64,000 bases of DNA from Streptomyces sp. NBC_01451. GTDB taxonomy: Bacteria > Actinomycetota > Actinomycetes > Streptomycetales > Streptomycetaceae. The stretch spans positions 7,564,001-7,628,000 of the forward strand of contig NZ_CP109479.1 in assembly GCF_036227485.1 (NCBI RefSeq). The letters run 5' to 3'. Positions 13,431 through 15,618 of the stretch are shown piece after piece. The position numbers and the translations under genes are program-made. Numbering within the stretch: the first letter of the stretch is position 1; each line of letters opens with the position of its first letter. The notes under the pieces were generated by a model. That model made no database searches and was not told the DNA's origin. It saw only the letters and a list, made by a program, of their open reading frames with translations.

Positions 13431-13434
13431 TTAA

Positions 13435-13469
13435 TTGGGTCGCCCGGCCCGCGGTACGCCTCCTAGAGT
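13435..13469 (+). promoter_or_regulatory. Candidate promoter of the Y-RNA/Ro60 locus
   Basis: TAGAGT at 13464-13469 is a good Streptomyces housekeeping -10 box. Its predicted start, 6-8 bases downstream, falls at about 13476, exactly where the outer stem of the first Y RNA begins (GTCCAG at 13477). TTGGGT at 13435-13440 is the only -35-like word but is 23 bases away, so the -35 part is weak. Confidence 0.55.
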
Positions 13470-13476
13470 GATGAAC

Positions 13477-13614
13477 GTCCAGGTGCGAAGGCAGGACCTA
13501 CTTCCACTCATAATGGGGCGGCCGCGGGTTCGAGTCCCGTCACCGGCACAACGCGCCGGTGTAGCTCAGGGGTTAGAGCACCTACGTCGGTTCCGCCGGC
13601 TTCGATCTCTGGAC
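13477..13614 (+). ncRNA. YrlA-type Y RNA, copy 1 (permuted tRNA-like module)
   Basis: The ends pair: GTCCAG (13477-13482) with CTGGAC (13609-13614), then CGAAG (13486-13490) with CTTCG (13600-13604), then GCAGGACC (13491-13498) with GGTTCCGC (13589-13596) past a bulged CGG. The 5' strand TGCGAAGGCAG resembles the Ro60-binding CCGAAGGUAG of animal Y RNAs. Inside is a tRNA in permuted order: T arm GCGGG-TTCGAGT-CCCGT (13524-13540), acceptor strand CACCGGC, a closed 7-base loop, acceptor strand GCCGGTG (13555-13561), then D arm GCTC-AGGGGTTA-GAGC (13564-13579). This order and the absence of a free CCA end match YrlA RNAs, whose tRNA-like domain is thought to bind an effector while the stem binds Ro60. 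The Ro60/Rsr gene is 287 bases downstream. Confidence 0.8.
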
Positions 13615-13631
13615 ACCCGGAACTTCATGCA

Positions 13632-13662
13632 CCTCCCGGTGCGCTATTCGATCTCGGGGAGG
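13632..13662 (+). ncRNA. Degenerate mini Y-RNA or hairpin between the two copies
   Basis: CCTCCC (13632-13637) pairs with GGGAGG (13657-13662). The enclosed sequence begins CGGTGCGC, identical to the 5' strand of copy 2 (CCCGGTGCGC occurs at 13635 and 13681), and ends TTCGATCTC, identical to the 3' strand of copy 1. It looks like a Y-RNA stem from which the tRNA-like insert has been lost. It could equally work as a terminator for copy 1. Confidence 0.4.
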
Positions 13663-13675
13663 CGCGGCAACAGGT

Positions 13676-13830
13676 GGGTGCCCGGTGCGCAGGCAGCGGA
13701 TACTTCGGGAACTGGTGGGGTTGACTCCTCATGCGGGTTCGAATCCCGTCATCGGCCCAGGGCCGGTGTGGCGGAACGGAAGACGCGCCAGTTGATAAGC
13801 GACCGTCGCCGATTTCGACCTCGGCCATCC
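13676..13830 (+). ncRNA. YrlA-type Y RNA, copy 2 (permuted tRNA-Leu-like module)
   Basis: The outer stem GGGTGCCCGG (13676-13685) pairs with TCGGCCATCC (13821-13830) with one C-C mismatch. GCAGCGG (13693-13699) pairs with CCGTCGC past a bulged CGA, the same architecture as copy 1 but with changed, still pairing bases. The 5' strand GGTGCGCAGGCAG differs from copy 1 at one core base. Inside: AACTGG (13710-13715) pairs with CCAGTT (13788-13793) as an anticodon-stem equivalent, GGGG-TTGA-CTCC is a class II-like variable arm, then T arm GCGGG-TTCGAAT-CCCGT (13733-13749), acceptor strands CATCGGC and GCCGGTG closed by CCAGG, and a tRNA-Leu-like D arm GCG-GAACGGAAGA-CGC. No CCA end or normal anticodon position exists, so it is not a tRNA gene. 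Confidence 0.78.
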
Positions 13831-13900
13831 TCCTATTGCCGTGCCTCCCTCCAAAACCGTTCCACGCACGAAGTGCTGGCGAATGGGGGGGGAATTCATC

Positions 13901-15484
13901 ATGGCGCGATTCAACACCAAGGCCGCCAAGGCGCAGCCCACTTCGCGGGTCACCTCGACGGGGCGCGTGCTCCGGACGTACCAGGGCGGCCGAGGCCGTG
14001 AGCGGGACGAGCGTTCGGAACTGTTCCTGCTGTCGATCGCCAACTTCGTCGCGCAGAAGACCTTCTACGAGAGCGGCGAGGACCGGGACGACCGGTTCGC
14101 CGCGCTCGTAAGCCGGCTCGCCGTCACCGACCCGGCGTGGACGGCAGGCCTCCTCGGCTGGCTGCGCGGCGAGGGCAACCTCCGTACGGCAGCCATCGTG
14201 GGCGCCGCCGAGTACGTGAAGGCCCGCCTCGACGCGAACGTCACCGACGGCCCCACCAACCGGCAGGTCGTCGACTCCGTACTGCGCCGCCCCGACGAGC
14301 CCGGCGAACTGCTCGCCTACTGGACCTCCCGGTACGGCCGCAGCATTCCCAAGCCCGTCAAGCGCGGTGTCGCCGACGCCGTACGTCGGCTCTACAGCGG
14401 CAAGTCGCTGCTGAAGTACGACACCGCGTCCAAGGGCTACCGCTTCGGCGACATCCTCAACCTGGTGCACGCGGCGCCGGATCCGGACAAGCCGTGGCAG
14501 GGCGACCTGTTCCAGTACGCGCTGGACCGGCGCCACAACCCGGACACGGCCGTCGTCCCCAAGTCGCTGCCCGTGCTCGCCGCACACCGTGACCTGATGG
14601 CGCTGCGGCCCGCGAAGCGGCGCAAGGTCGTGACCGGGGCGCGCGGCGCCGAGCGGCTGGCGGAGGCGGGTATGACCTGGGAGGCGCTGGCCGGCTGGCT
14701 TCAGGGGCCGATGGACAAGGCGGCCTGGGAGGCCGTCATCCCGTCCATGGGCGCGATGGCCCTCGTCCGGAACCTGCGGAACTTCGACGAGGCGGGCGTG
14801 AGCGACGAGGTCGCGGCGCGGGTCGCGGCGAAGATCAGCGACCCGGCCGAGGTCGCGCGCTCGCGGCAGTTCCCCTTCCGCTACCTCGCCGCGTACCGCC
14901 ACGCGCCCTCGCTGCGCTGGGCGTACCCGCTGGAGCAGGCGCTCGGGCACTCGCTGGCCAATGTGCCGGCGTTGGGCGGGCGGACGCTCGTCCTCGTCGA
15001 CCGCTCCGGCTCGATGTTCTACTCCCGGCTGTCCGAACGCTCGGAACTCACCCGGGCCGACGCGGCGGCGGTCTTCGGCTCGGCGCTCGCCCTGCGGGCG
15101 GCGGGCGCGGATCTCGTCGAGTTCGGTACGTCGAGCAAGCGCGTGACGTACCGCGAGGGCGAGTCGGTGCTGAAGATCCTGGACCGCTTCGGCGACCTGG
15201 GCGGCACCGACACCACCGAGGCGGTGCGGCGCCACTACCGAGGGCACGACCGGGTCCTGATCGTCACGGACGAGCAGTACGCGCACAGCGTGCACGGCGA
15301 TCCCACCGAGCAGGTGCCGGCCGACGTACCGGTCTACACCTGGAACCTCGCCGGGTACCGGGCGGGCCACGGCCCGTCGGGGACGGGGAACCGGCACACG
15401 TTCGGCGGGCTGTCGGACGCGGCCTTCCGGATGATTCCGCTGCTGGAAGGGGCGCACGACTCGGACTGGCCGTGGGTCGGCTGA
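13901..15484 (+). CDS. rsr: TROVE/vWA-domain Ro60 orthologue (Rsr)
   Basis: 527 residues from the ATG at 13901, preceded by a G-rich GGGGGGGGAATTCATC ribosome site; the frame is open 20 codons further upstream, but that stretch overlaps the Y-RNA leader. Residues about 15-345 are the ring of HEAT-like helices of the TROVE domain (RGRERDERSELFLLSIANFV, PKPVKRGVADAVRRLY, WEAVIPSMGAMALVRNLRNF). From about 360 a von Willebrand A domain follows with an intact MIDAS: DRSGS near 367 and GGTDTT near 434. Ro60 proteins bind Y RNAs and misfolded RNAs and, in bacteria, help stress recovery and can tether PNPase. The two Y-RNA-like elements directly upstream, on the same strand, support this assignment strongly. 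Confidence 0.9.
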   Translation: MARFNTKAAKAQPTSRVTSTGRVLRTYQGGRGRERDERSELFLLSIANFVAQKTFYESGEDRDDRFAALVSRLAVTDPAWTAGLLGWLRGEGNLRTAAIVGAAEYVKARLDANVTDGPTNRQVVDSVLRRPDEPGELLAYWTSRYGRSIPKPVKRGVADAVRRLYSGKSLLKYDTASKGYRFGDILNLVHAAPDPDKPWQGDLFQYALDRRHNPDTAVVPKSLPVLAAHRDLMALRPAKRRKVVTGARGAERLAEAGMTWEALAGWLQGPMDKAAWEAVIPSMGAMALVRNLRNFDEAGVSDEVAARVAAKISDPAEVARSRQFPFRYLAAYRHAPSLRWAYPLEQALGHSLANVPALGGRTLVLVDRSGSMFYSRLSERSELTRADAAAVFGSALALRAAGADLVEFGTSSKRVTYREGESVLKILDRFGDLGGTDTTEAVRRHYRGHDRVLIVTDEQYAHSVHGDPTEQVPADVPVYTWNLAGYRAGHGPSGTGNRHTFGGLSDAAFRMIPLLEGAHDSDWPWVG

Positions 15485-15528
15485 GCTGAGCCGGGCCGCG
15501 CCGAGTCGCGGCGAGTGGGACGAGTGGG

Positions 15529-15558
15529 GTGTGGCCCGTACTTCGGTGCGGGCCACAC
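15529..15558 (+). terminator. Terminator with UUCG tetraloop after the Ro60 gene
   Basis: A 13-bp stem GTGTGGCCCGTAC / GTGCGGGCCACAC closes a TTCG loop in the stable C(UUCG)G setting and is followed by TTTCG. It begins 44 bases after the stop codon of the Ro60 gene. Confidence 0.85.
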
Positions 15559-15618
15559 TTTCGTCCGCGTGCTCAGCGCCCTTGTGTGCCCGCCTCTCTG
15601 ACATCTAACATTTCAGTT

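Follow-up and report, generated by a model that had tools for sequence, protein, structure and literature searches.

A Ro60–Y RNA locus of Streptomyces with exchangeable tRNA-like heads and a Y RNA predicted to keep its anticodon arm

What are tRNA-like RNAs encoded directly upstream of a Ro60-family gene good for, and which parts of a tRNA have they kept? We address this question for a locus of Streptomyces sp. NBC_01451, analyzed within a window of 64,000 nucleotides (contig NZ_CP109479.1, positions 7,564,001 to 7,628,000) of its 10.3-Mb one-contig genome. On the + strand, a first Y RNA (Y1), a short Y RNA stem (Y2), a third Y RNA (Y3), the gene of a TROVE/vWA protein, and a UUCG hairpin follow each other (Table 1). 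An earlier note, made from the letters alone, had described a Ro60–Y RNA system with two permuted tRNA-like RNAs, each running from the T arm through the acceptor 3' strand, a closed loop, and the acceptor 5' strand to the D arm and lacking a CCA end. Mapping of the arms bears this out for Y1 and Y3, with 7/7 standard pairs in either acceptor stem, while the headless Y2 between them had been missed. The RNA structures, their covariation, the linkage to TROVE genes, and the protein fold all emerge from comparison with relatives. On balance, we favor the reading that this is a Ro60–Y RNA operon in which the heads couple Ro60 to a tRNA-recognizing partner, most likely polynucleotide phosphorylase (PNPase) as in Deinococcus.

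The arrangement is widespread in the family, where 128 of 200 genomes encode a homologue of the TROVE protein and 78 of 90 loci have at least one upstream unit of the same layout, i.e., an outer stem leading into a GUGCG-like strand and, at the far end, a GAUCU-like strand leading back into the outer stem. Four closed units were found in 2 of these loci, three in 25, two in 44, one in 7, and none in 12; these are undercounts, e.g., in the window itself, because the unit finder demands six perfect outer pairs. The Ro60-type stem is conserved in both sequence layout and covariation. Its 5' strand carries the Y-RNA-like motifs that the earlier note had pointed out, exactly GGTGCGAAGGCAG in Y1 and GGTGCGCAGGCAG in Y3, which we take to resemble those of animal Y RNAs. 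The motif alone proves nothing, however, since two matches with at most one mismatch occur in 25 of 100 shuffles.

Covariation was counted on sequence-only MAFFT alignments of Y1 (A1; 36 of 44 distinct sequences, excluding 8 that have no regular head or no regular anticodon arm), Y3 (A2; 23 of 58), and Y2 (A3; 50 of 69). In Y1, 99.2% of cells are paired and both partners changed in 18 of 37 pairs, giving a covariation score of 0.272 compared to 0.110 after shuffling, which ignores relatedness, and at most 0.064 after sliding, which keeps it. The corresponding values for Y3 are 95.9%, 17 of 39 pairs, and 0.314 versus 0.110 and at most 0.089, so that the covariation among related genomes on which the earlier note had made its reading depend is strong for both RNAs. 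For Y2, 97.5% of cells are paired and 6 of 15 pairs changed on both sides in a structure that RNAalifold derived as the consensus of these very rows. Two search models, R1 and R2, had been built before the anticodon stem of Y1 was refined as described below, and they match Y1 and Y3 of the window, respectively. At least 103 genomes have R2 matches among the matches listed (down to 73.5 bits), and 102 of them also have a TROVE match; counts at E ≤ 0.01 (192/200 genomes) were discarded as evidence because tandem tRNAs match R2.

The two heads are opened at different places. In Y1, the outer anticodon-stem pairs 27-43 and 28-42 draw on a strand 3' of the D arm and covary (27-43: CG in 49 and GC in 10 of 61 distinct arms; 28-42: CG 49, UA 5, GC 5, AU 1), and the stretch following UACUU supplies the inner pairs 29-41, 30-40, and 31-39, which enclose a loop of 7 nt. 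These inner pairs are formed in 97.1% in A1 and, by selection, in 100% of the distinct arms. With positions 27-28 pairing after the D arm and the inner pairs forming locally, Y1 is, on sequence evidence, a complete cloverleaf, i.e., a whole tRNA opened between positions 28 and 29 that has kept its anticodon arm. Most Y1 heads have a 5-nt variable loop and an acceptor sealed by a short loop. A first structure with all five anticodon-stem pairs in a local hairpin, of which 37/37 pairs are standard in the window copy, was rejected with only 89.3% paired in that helix; the split of 27-28/42-43 fits better. RNAalifold on A1 did not predict the anticodon arm unaided and drew a 2-bp helix there. The earlier note had recognized copy 1 as a permuted tRNA but missed its anticodon arm and the 28/29 opening, unlike that of copy 2, and the end of the RNA is here corrected to 13614.

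Y3, judged by its pairings, is a tRNA whose opening lies in the anticodon loop, and its helix continues into the Ro60 stem just as the Rfam YrlA consensus has it. Its helix of positions 27-31 with 39-43 (helix 3 of A2, to which no pairing selection applied) is paired in 93.5% of cells, and both bases changed in 4 of its 5 pairs. A free search found a 5/5 partner for positions 39-43 in 32 of 37 distinct Leu-type modules, with 16 sequence variants, and it is mainly on these variants that the split pairs of this type rest because the search has a chance rate of 20% on shuffled sequences. The Leu-like nature that had been assigned to copy 2 holds as well, with Leu(gag) nearest and Leu(cag) close behind among the host tRNAs collected and a class II variable arm. 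Of 93 tree tips, 45 have a class I head nearest to the TROVE gene, 44 a Leu-like one, and 4 a head of another kind, and the head type changed 24 times. In other Actinomycetes, heads are nearest to Gln and Glu tRNAs with low scores, and the head of locus L133 is nearest to tRNA-Asn with a GUU loop (score 37.2). Y2 lacks a tRNA head in most loci; the lone folding of the window remnant is unremarkable (z −0.33), and short forms also occur in loci L012 and L026.

The protein encoded downstream matches Pfam TROVE with 48.8 bits (cut-off 23) over a single 60-aa stretch and contains DRSGSM at aa 367; the residues D367, S369, S371, T436, and D457 of its metal-ion-dependent adhesion site (MIDAS) are invariant in a 32-row alignment. 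The structure predicted from this alignment (pLDDT 88.8) is a HEAT ring plus vWA fold with MIDAS and matches Ro60 of Thermus phage phiLo (9l5y), Xenopus Ro60 (1yvp; TM 0.71), and Rsr of Deinococcus radiodurans (2nvo). Pfam match, Ro60 fold, and MIDAS, yet only 19.3 bits versus a cut-off of 900 on the Rsr equivalog of NCBIfam (NF041674), mark the protein as a divergent Ro60 by its predicted structure, in line with the Ro60-family protein with intact MIDAS that had been recognized on the same strand from the start. Its nearest named relatives come from Streptomyces, with 96% for Streptomyces sp. SID12488.

An adjoining TROVE gene, permuted T, acceptor, and D arms, and a conserved Ro60-type stem place these RNAs with bacterial Y RNAs like YrlA (Rfam RF02553; Salmonella structure PDB 6CU1), in which the permuted T arm, acceptor hairpin, and D arm likewise sit on such a stem beside a Ro60 gene. 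Y3 shares the opening in the anticodon loop with the Rfam consensus, whereas Y1 with its opening at 28/29 does not, and its full anticodon arm has no counterpart in that consensus (a 12-nt insertion there in locus L035). The arrays further differ by their class II heads, by heads of the Gln/Glu kind mentioned above, and by having up to four units per bacterial locus. A run of the Rfam YrlA model on the region, proposed by the earlier note as a check, yielded 30.8 and 15.6 bits versus a gathering threshold of 69, which leaves the window RNAs outside RF02553 as modelled, and none of 121 family genomes had a match over the cut-off. Titles and abstracts among the best matches listed for the Y RNA, YrlA, and Ro60 literature contained no anticodon arm in a Y RNA, a scope that does not extend to the primary papers and is thus no proof of novelty, and a literature search for Y RNA, Ro60, and Streptomyces found no paper. 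The system itself is of a known kind; arrays with exchangeable heads and an anticodon-bearing Y1 are what we regard as new. Propionibacterium propionicum is an actinobacterium. Its Ro60 ribonucleoproteins were precipitated with Y RNAs according to a review (PMC11277228), and for other bacteria PMC8394870 reports the tRNA-like domain of YrlA, its modification by DusA/TruB, and a link to PNPase.

How could such a locus work? A single promoter 5' of Y1 would drive the Y RNA array and then the Ro60 gene. The lower stem of each Y RNA (outer helix, GUGCG/GAUCU internal loop, and GGC helix) would be the handle held by Ro60, and the heads would differ, with the YrlA layout in Y3, a whole tRNA with a free 7-nt anticodon loop in Y1, and mostly no tRNA head in Y2. 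Enzymes acting on tRNAs may modify these heads, with Ψ55 and D as in YrlA and N6-threonylcarbamoyladenosine (t6A) at position 37 of Y1, predicted because U36-A37-A38 is kept. The heads may then recruit the tRNA-recognizing partner, which would thereby let one Ro60 work with various tRNA-like adaptors in RNA decay or in the surveillance of tRNAs. The model for this proposal is the Rsr–Y RNA–PNPase machine of D. radiodurans (RYPER), which likewise combines a Ro60-fold protein with a Y RNA but whose Rsr family the window protein matches so poorly.

Several points weigh against this reading. PNPase as the partner is an analogy with Deinococcus. The Y1 and Y3 structures were drawn from one row, an advantage over the slid versions in the comparison above, and minimum-energy folds of single Y1 and Y3 sequences do not surpass those of shuffled sequences (z −0.94 and 0.29). 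Among the matches listed, 26 of the 128 TROVE genomes have no R2 match, seven of them with weak protein matches only. Finally, some genomes carry Y RNAs with no TROVE gene close by, so that the unit is not always an operon.

Such orphan Y RNAs, all R2 matches, lie at L125 3277-3425, L296 2558-2695, L298 2382-2517, L299 2199-2336, L300 2608-2743, L301 2195-2336, L302 2476-2614, L303 2427-2567, and L304 2539-2675. They have GUGCG/GAUCU-type stems and tRNA-like heads, the neighboring genes scanned are unrelated, and the window TROVE protein has no match at E ≤ 1 in the 5-kb stretches. For L125, the whole genome (G023) was also found to have no TROVE match. ARAGORN calls tRNA-Cys over the R2 matches of L297, L303, and L305. 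In L045 (a second TROVE copy in its genome) and L071, the TROVE gene is preceded by a single Y-like hairpin that by eye has no tRNA head. The orphans also bear on a different explanation, in which the RNAs would be cis-regulatory leaders of the TROVE mRNA, e.g., a tRNA-sensing leader, instead of free Y RNAs. Their position upstream of TROVE on the same strand agrees with this, but the module search looked only there and the agreement is thus not independent. With multiple self-contained units to a locus, each closed by a stem of its own, and with orphan loci that have no TROVE gene nearby, we consider leaders improbable.

Another way to obtain the permuted order of arms would be the decay of tandem tRNA genes, whose junction resembles a permuted tRNA. 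A real tRNA-Asn pair in the genome of the window (L094 1475-1627) reaches 52.9 bits with R1 and, with 39.3 bits versus 30.8, outscores the window Y RNAs on Rfam YrlA. However, the pair matches only positions 26-104 of R1 while Y1 and Y3 match full-length with covarying Ro60 stems, and ARAGORN calls zero tRNA genes within the window. Remnants of this kind are ruled out as a present function by the conserved stems, and the explanation as a whole seems to us hardly credible. As an origin of the permuted modules, tandem pairs are plausible, since passing from the 3' half of a tRNA to the 5' half of its downstream neighbor yields the permuted order.

The anticodon loop of Y1 shows an unusual pattern of variation. 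We collected 262 modules from 195 loci, which partly overlap (a family genome and a named record are possibly from the same strain) and of which 28 have no module. These comprise 111 modules with an anticodon arm, 86 split modules, and 65 others with mostly Leu-type heads. For the first class, the register was set by UACUUC and the three inner pairs plus a 4-5-nt variable loop were demanded, but no loop base, with a chance rate of inner pairing of 6.7%; the split class demanded at least 4 of 5 pairs, which inflates its pairing percentages. Among the 111 arms (61 distinct), U33 and A38 are found in all 111, C32 in 108, A37 in 103, and U36 in 102, and there are 20 distinct loops with 18 pseudo-anticodons (CAU, GAU, CUU, UUU, GUU, GCU, ACU, CGU, GGU, UGU, CCU, UCU, and six without U36). 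U36-A37-A38 is the context in which tRNAs reading ANN codons are recognized for t6A modification.

On a tree of 104 non-identical TROVE genes, 75 of which (nearly all from Streptomyces) have a Y1 arm, parsimony requires a minimum of 22 changes at position 34, 13 at 35, and 4 at 37 compared to zero at 32, 33, 36, and 38, counts that recombination may inflate on a gene tree. Of the 22 changes at 34, 20 are exchanges between C and G (C<->G). Positions 47 and 59 changed by transitions only (16 and 9) and positions 44 and 37 by transversions only (7 and 4), so that transversions amount to 31/35 at 34-35 versus 0/25 at 47 and 59 (Fisher p 4.6e-13) or 11/36 at 47, 59, 37, and 44 taken together (p 6.5e-7). 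Independent of the tree, U and A at position 34 are nearly absent (1 each of 75). Under neutral drift, U should be frequent there and give UAU, an anticodon that the collected host tRNAs lack. Within 520 nt upstream, no column covaries with 34 or 35 (mutual information at most 0.245, null 95% 0.253).

This pattern raises the possibility that the anticodon arm of Y1 serves as a decoy for, or a sensor of, anticodon-loop enzymes such as anticodon nucleases or modification enzymes, with Ro60 holding the bait and the pseudo-anticodon turning over with the threats. The at least 35 changes at 34-35 beside unchanging positions 32, 33, 36, and 38, the C<->G exchanges and transversion excess, and the lack of an upstream pairing partner all point in this direction, as do phage Ro-like genes, which in 7 of the 8 loci fetched are situated within or close to tRNA genes and in one case adjoin an RNA ligase gene. 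On the other hand, no nuclease is known for such a set of anticodons, the constant U36 is equally compatible with t6A enzymes or with the structure of the loop, an anticodon loop is absent from Y3 heads, the 8 distinct Y1s left out of A1 lack a regular head or arm, and the change counts come from a gene tree. PMC7790460 cuts both ways, suggesting that YrlA may competitively inhibit an anticodon nuclease and reporting that YrlA fragments were not detected in Salmonella with the nuclease active. Altogether, we rate the decoy as rather unlikely.

The Ro-like proteins of actinophages Alone3, BRock, GiJojo, and VanLee belong to the same family as the window protein (49-52% identity, full-length; 40-52% over the whole length across the 22 best phage records, including some GenBank/RefSeq doubles). 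As in bacteria, Y-like RNAs lie upstream of these genes, seen by eye in 7 of 8 phage loci fetched, but the loci differ by their setting in or near phage tRNA genes and by up to about five Y-like units by eye. R1 matches the Y-like RNA of VanLee with 106.4 bits. Three phage features annotated as tRNA-Ser(gct) (L288 2274-2347), tRNA-Arg(cct) (L294 2269-2343), and tRNA-Arg(tct) (L290 2204-2275) lie inside full-length R1 matches of 39.9, 44.0, and 106.4 bits, respectively, and are probably Y RNAs. Ro60 is linked to RNA repair in other bacteria. In phage JustBecause (L293 1729-4165), the RNA ligase gene lies directly 5' of the Ro-like gene, with a Y-like unit beyond it.

Outside Actinomycetes, four cellular records and one phage were examined. 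Two Picosynechococcus plasmids, near-identical there, encode tRNA-like RNAs of normal order with a hairpin inserted between the D and anticodon arms; on pAQ7 of PCC 7002 (L311 889-1292; L312 is nearly the same), three such RNAs lie 5' of TROVE, one with loop CUGUUAA. Two of them score above the cut-off of the tRNA model in Rfam (47.1 and 37.0 bits), and ARAGORN calls none. The same loop occurs in a Y RNA 5' of TROVE on a Rhodococcus rhodochrous plasmid (L309 1323-1447), which has a different anticodon stem (UUCGA/UCGAG). An opening next to the anticodon stem, common to Y1 and the non-permuted cyanobacterial form, suggests that Y RNAs began as tRNAs with an inserted Ro60 hairpin. Taken together with the loop variation, this leads to a tentative proposal in which Y1 would be a complete tRNA mimic tethered to Ro60, its loop selected to resemble the t6A class (NNU) and its anticodon switching among natural ones (Met, Ile, Lys, Asn, Ser, Thr, and Arg) as a changeable decoy or bait, on RNAs that started out as hairpin-bearing tRNAs.

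The unit is flanked by a PhoX-family gene on the left and by a GntR regulator and a 1-aminocyclopropane-1-carboxylate (ACC) deaminase gene on the right. A consensus ttaAttcgctcgcccg...cctccTAnaGTgatg precedes the first Y RNA in 18 Y1-first loci (the window's own counted), a similar promoter-like motif stands before Y2 in most Y2-first loci, and a sigma-70 scan upstream of Y1 found nothing. A palindrome-like GAATTCGGGGGAATTC lies 5' of the start codon of TROVE in most of the Streptomyces loci that were read, with a partly decayed copy at 13885-13900 of the window. The strong UUCG terminator of the earlier note stands as a stable hairpin and likely terminator; only TTT follows its GC-rich part, and a strict terminator scan found none there.

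Table 1. Features of the Y RNA–TROVE locus (positions within the window)
Feature	Position	Strand	Basis
Promoter-like stretch	13431..13469	+	TTAATT 13431-13436, TAGAGT 13464-13469; ends 7 nt 5' of Y1
Y1 RNA (copy 1)	13477..13614	+	R1 match 149.2 bits, E 7.6e-35 (not independent, same sequence, L002, in R1 training set); covariation
Ro60-binding-type motif GGTGCGAAGGCAG, 5' strand of Y1 stem	13482..13494	+	exact; binding predicted
UACUUC motif of Y1	13499..13504	+	present in most Y1, Y2, and Y3 sequences
Inner anticodon stem and loop of Y1	13504..13516	+	loop CUCAUAA 13507-13513, pseudo-anticodon CAU; fixed-register test
tRNA positions 42-43 of Y1	13517..13518	+	pair with 27-28 (13581-13582) 3' of D arm; covarying, 100% formed in A1
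T arm of Y1	13524..13540	+	standard pairing, covariation in relatives
Closed acceptor stem of Y1, 7 bp, no CCA	13541..13561	+	3' strand 13541-13547, 7-nt loop 13548-13554, 5' strand 13555-13561
D arm of Y1	13564..13579	+	pairing, covariation in relatives
Y2 remnant, stem of middle Y RNA	13632..13662	+	head deleted in window genome; longer in relatives
Y3 RNA (copy 2)	13678..13828	+	R2 match 77.4 bits, E 2e-16; copy outside R2 training set
Motif GGTGCGCAGGCAG, 5' strand of Y3 stem	13684..13696	+	exact
UACUUC motif of Y3	13701..13706	+	sequence
Y3 positions 39-43 (ACTGG)	13711..13715	+	pair with 27-31 (CCAGT, 13788-13792)
Class II (Leu-like) variable arm of Y3, 17 nt	13716..13732	+	Leu-type module analysis
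T arm of Y3	13733..13749	+	sequence, pairing
Closed acceptor stem of Y3	13750..13768	+	3' strand 13750-13756, loop 13757-13761, 5' strand 13762-13768
D arm of Y3, GCGG...ACGC, Leu-like	13771..13786	+	pairing; nearest host tRNAs
TROVE/vWA protein (Ro60 family), 527 aa, MIDAS intact	13901..15484	+	Pfam TROVE match, MIDAS residues, predicted fold
UUCG hairpin, likely terminator	15526..15561	+	folding −29.4 kcal/mol, z −4.62

For genome annotation, these results mean that the Rfam YrlA model at its cut-off misses these Y RNAs and that tandem tRNAs mimic YrlA in searches, so that weak YrlA matches in genomes need checking. For the biology of the system, the many natural swaps of heads on one kind of stem, together with the variable positions 34-35, make the partner of the Y RNA heads testable.

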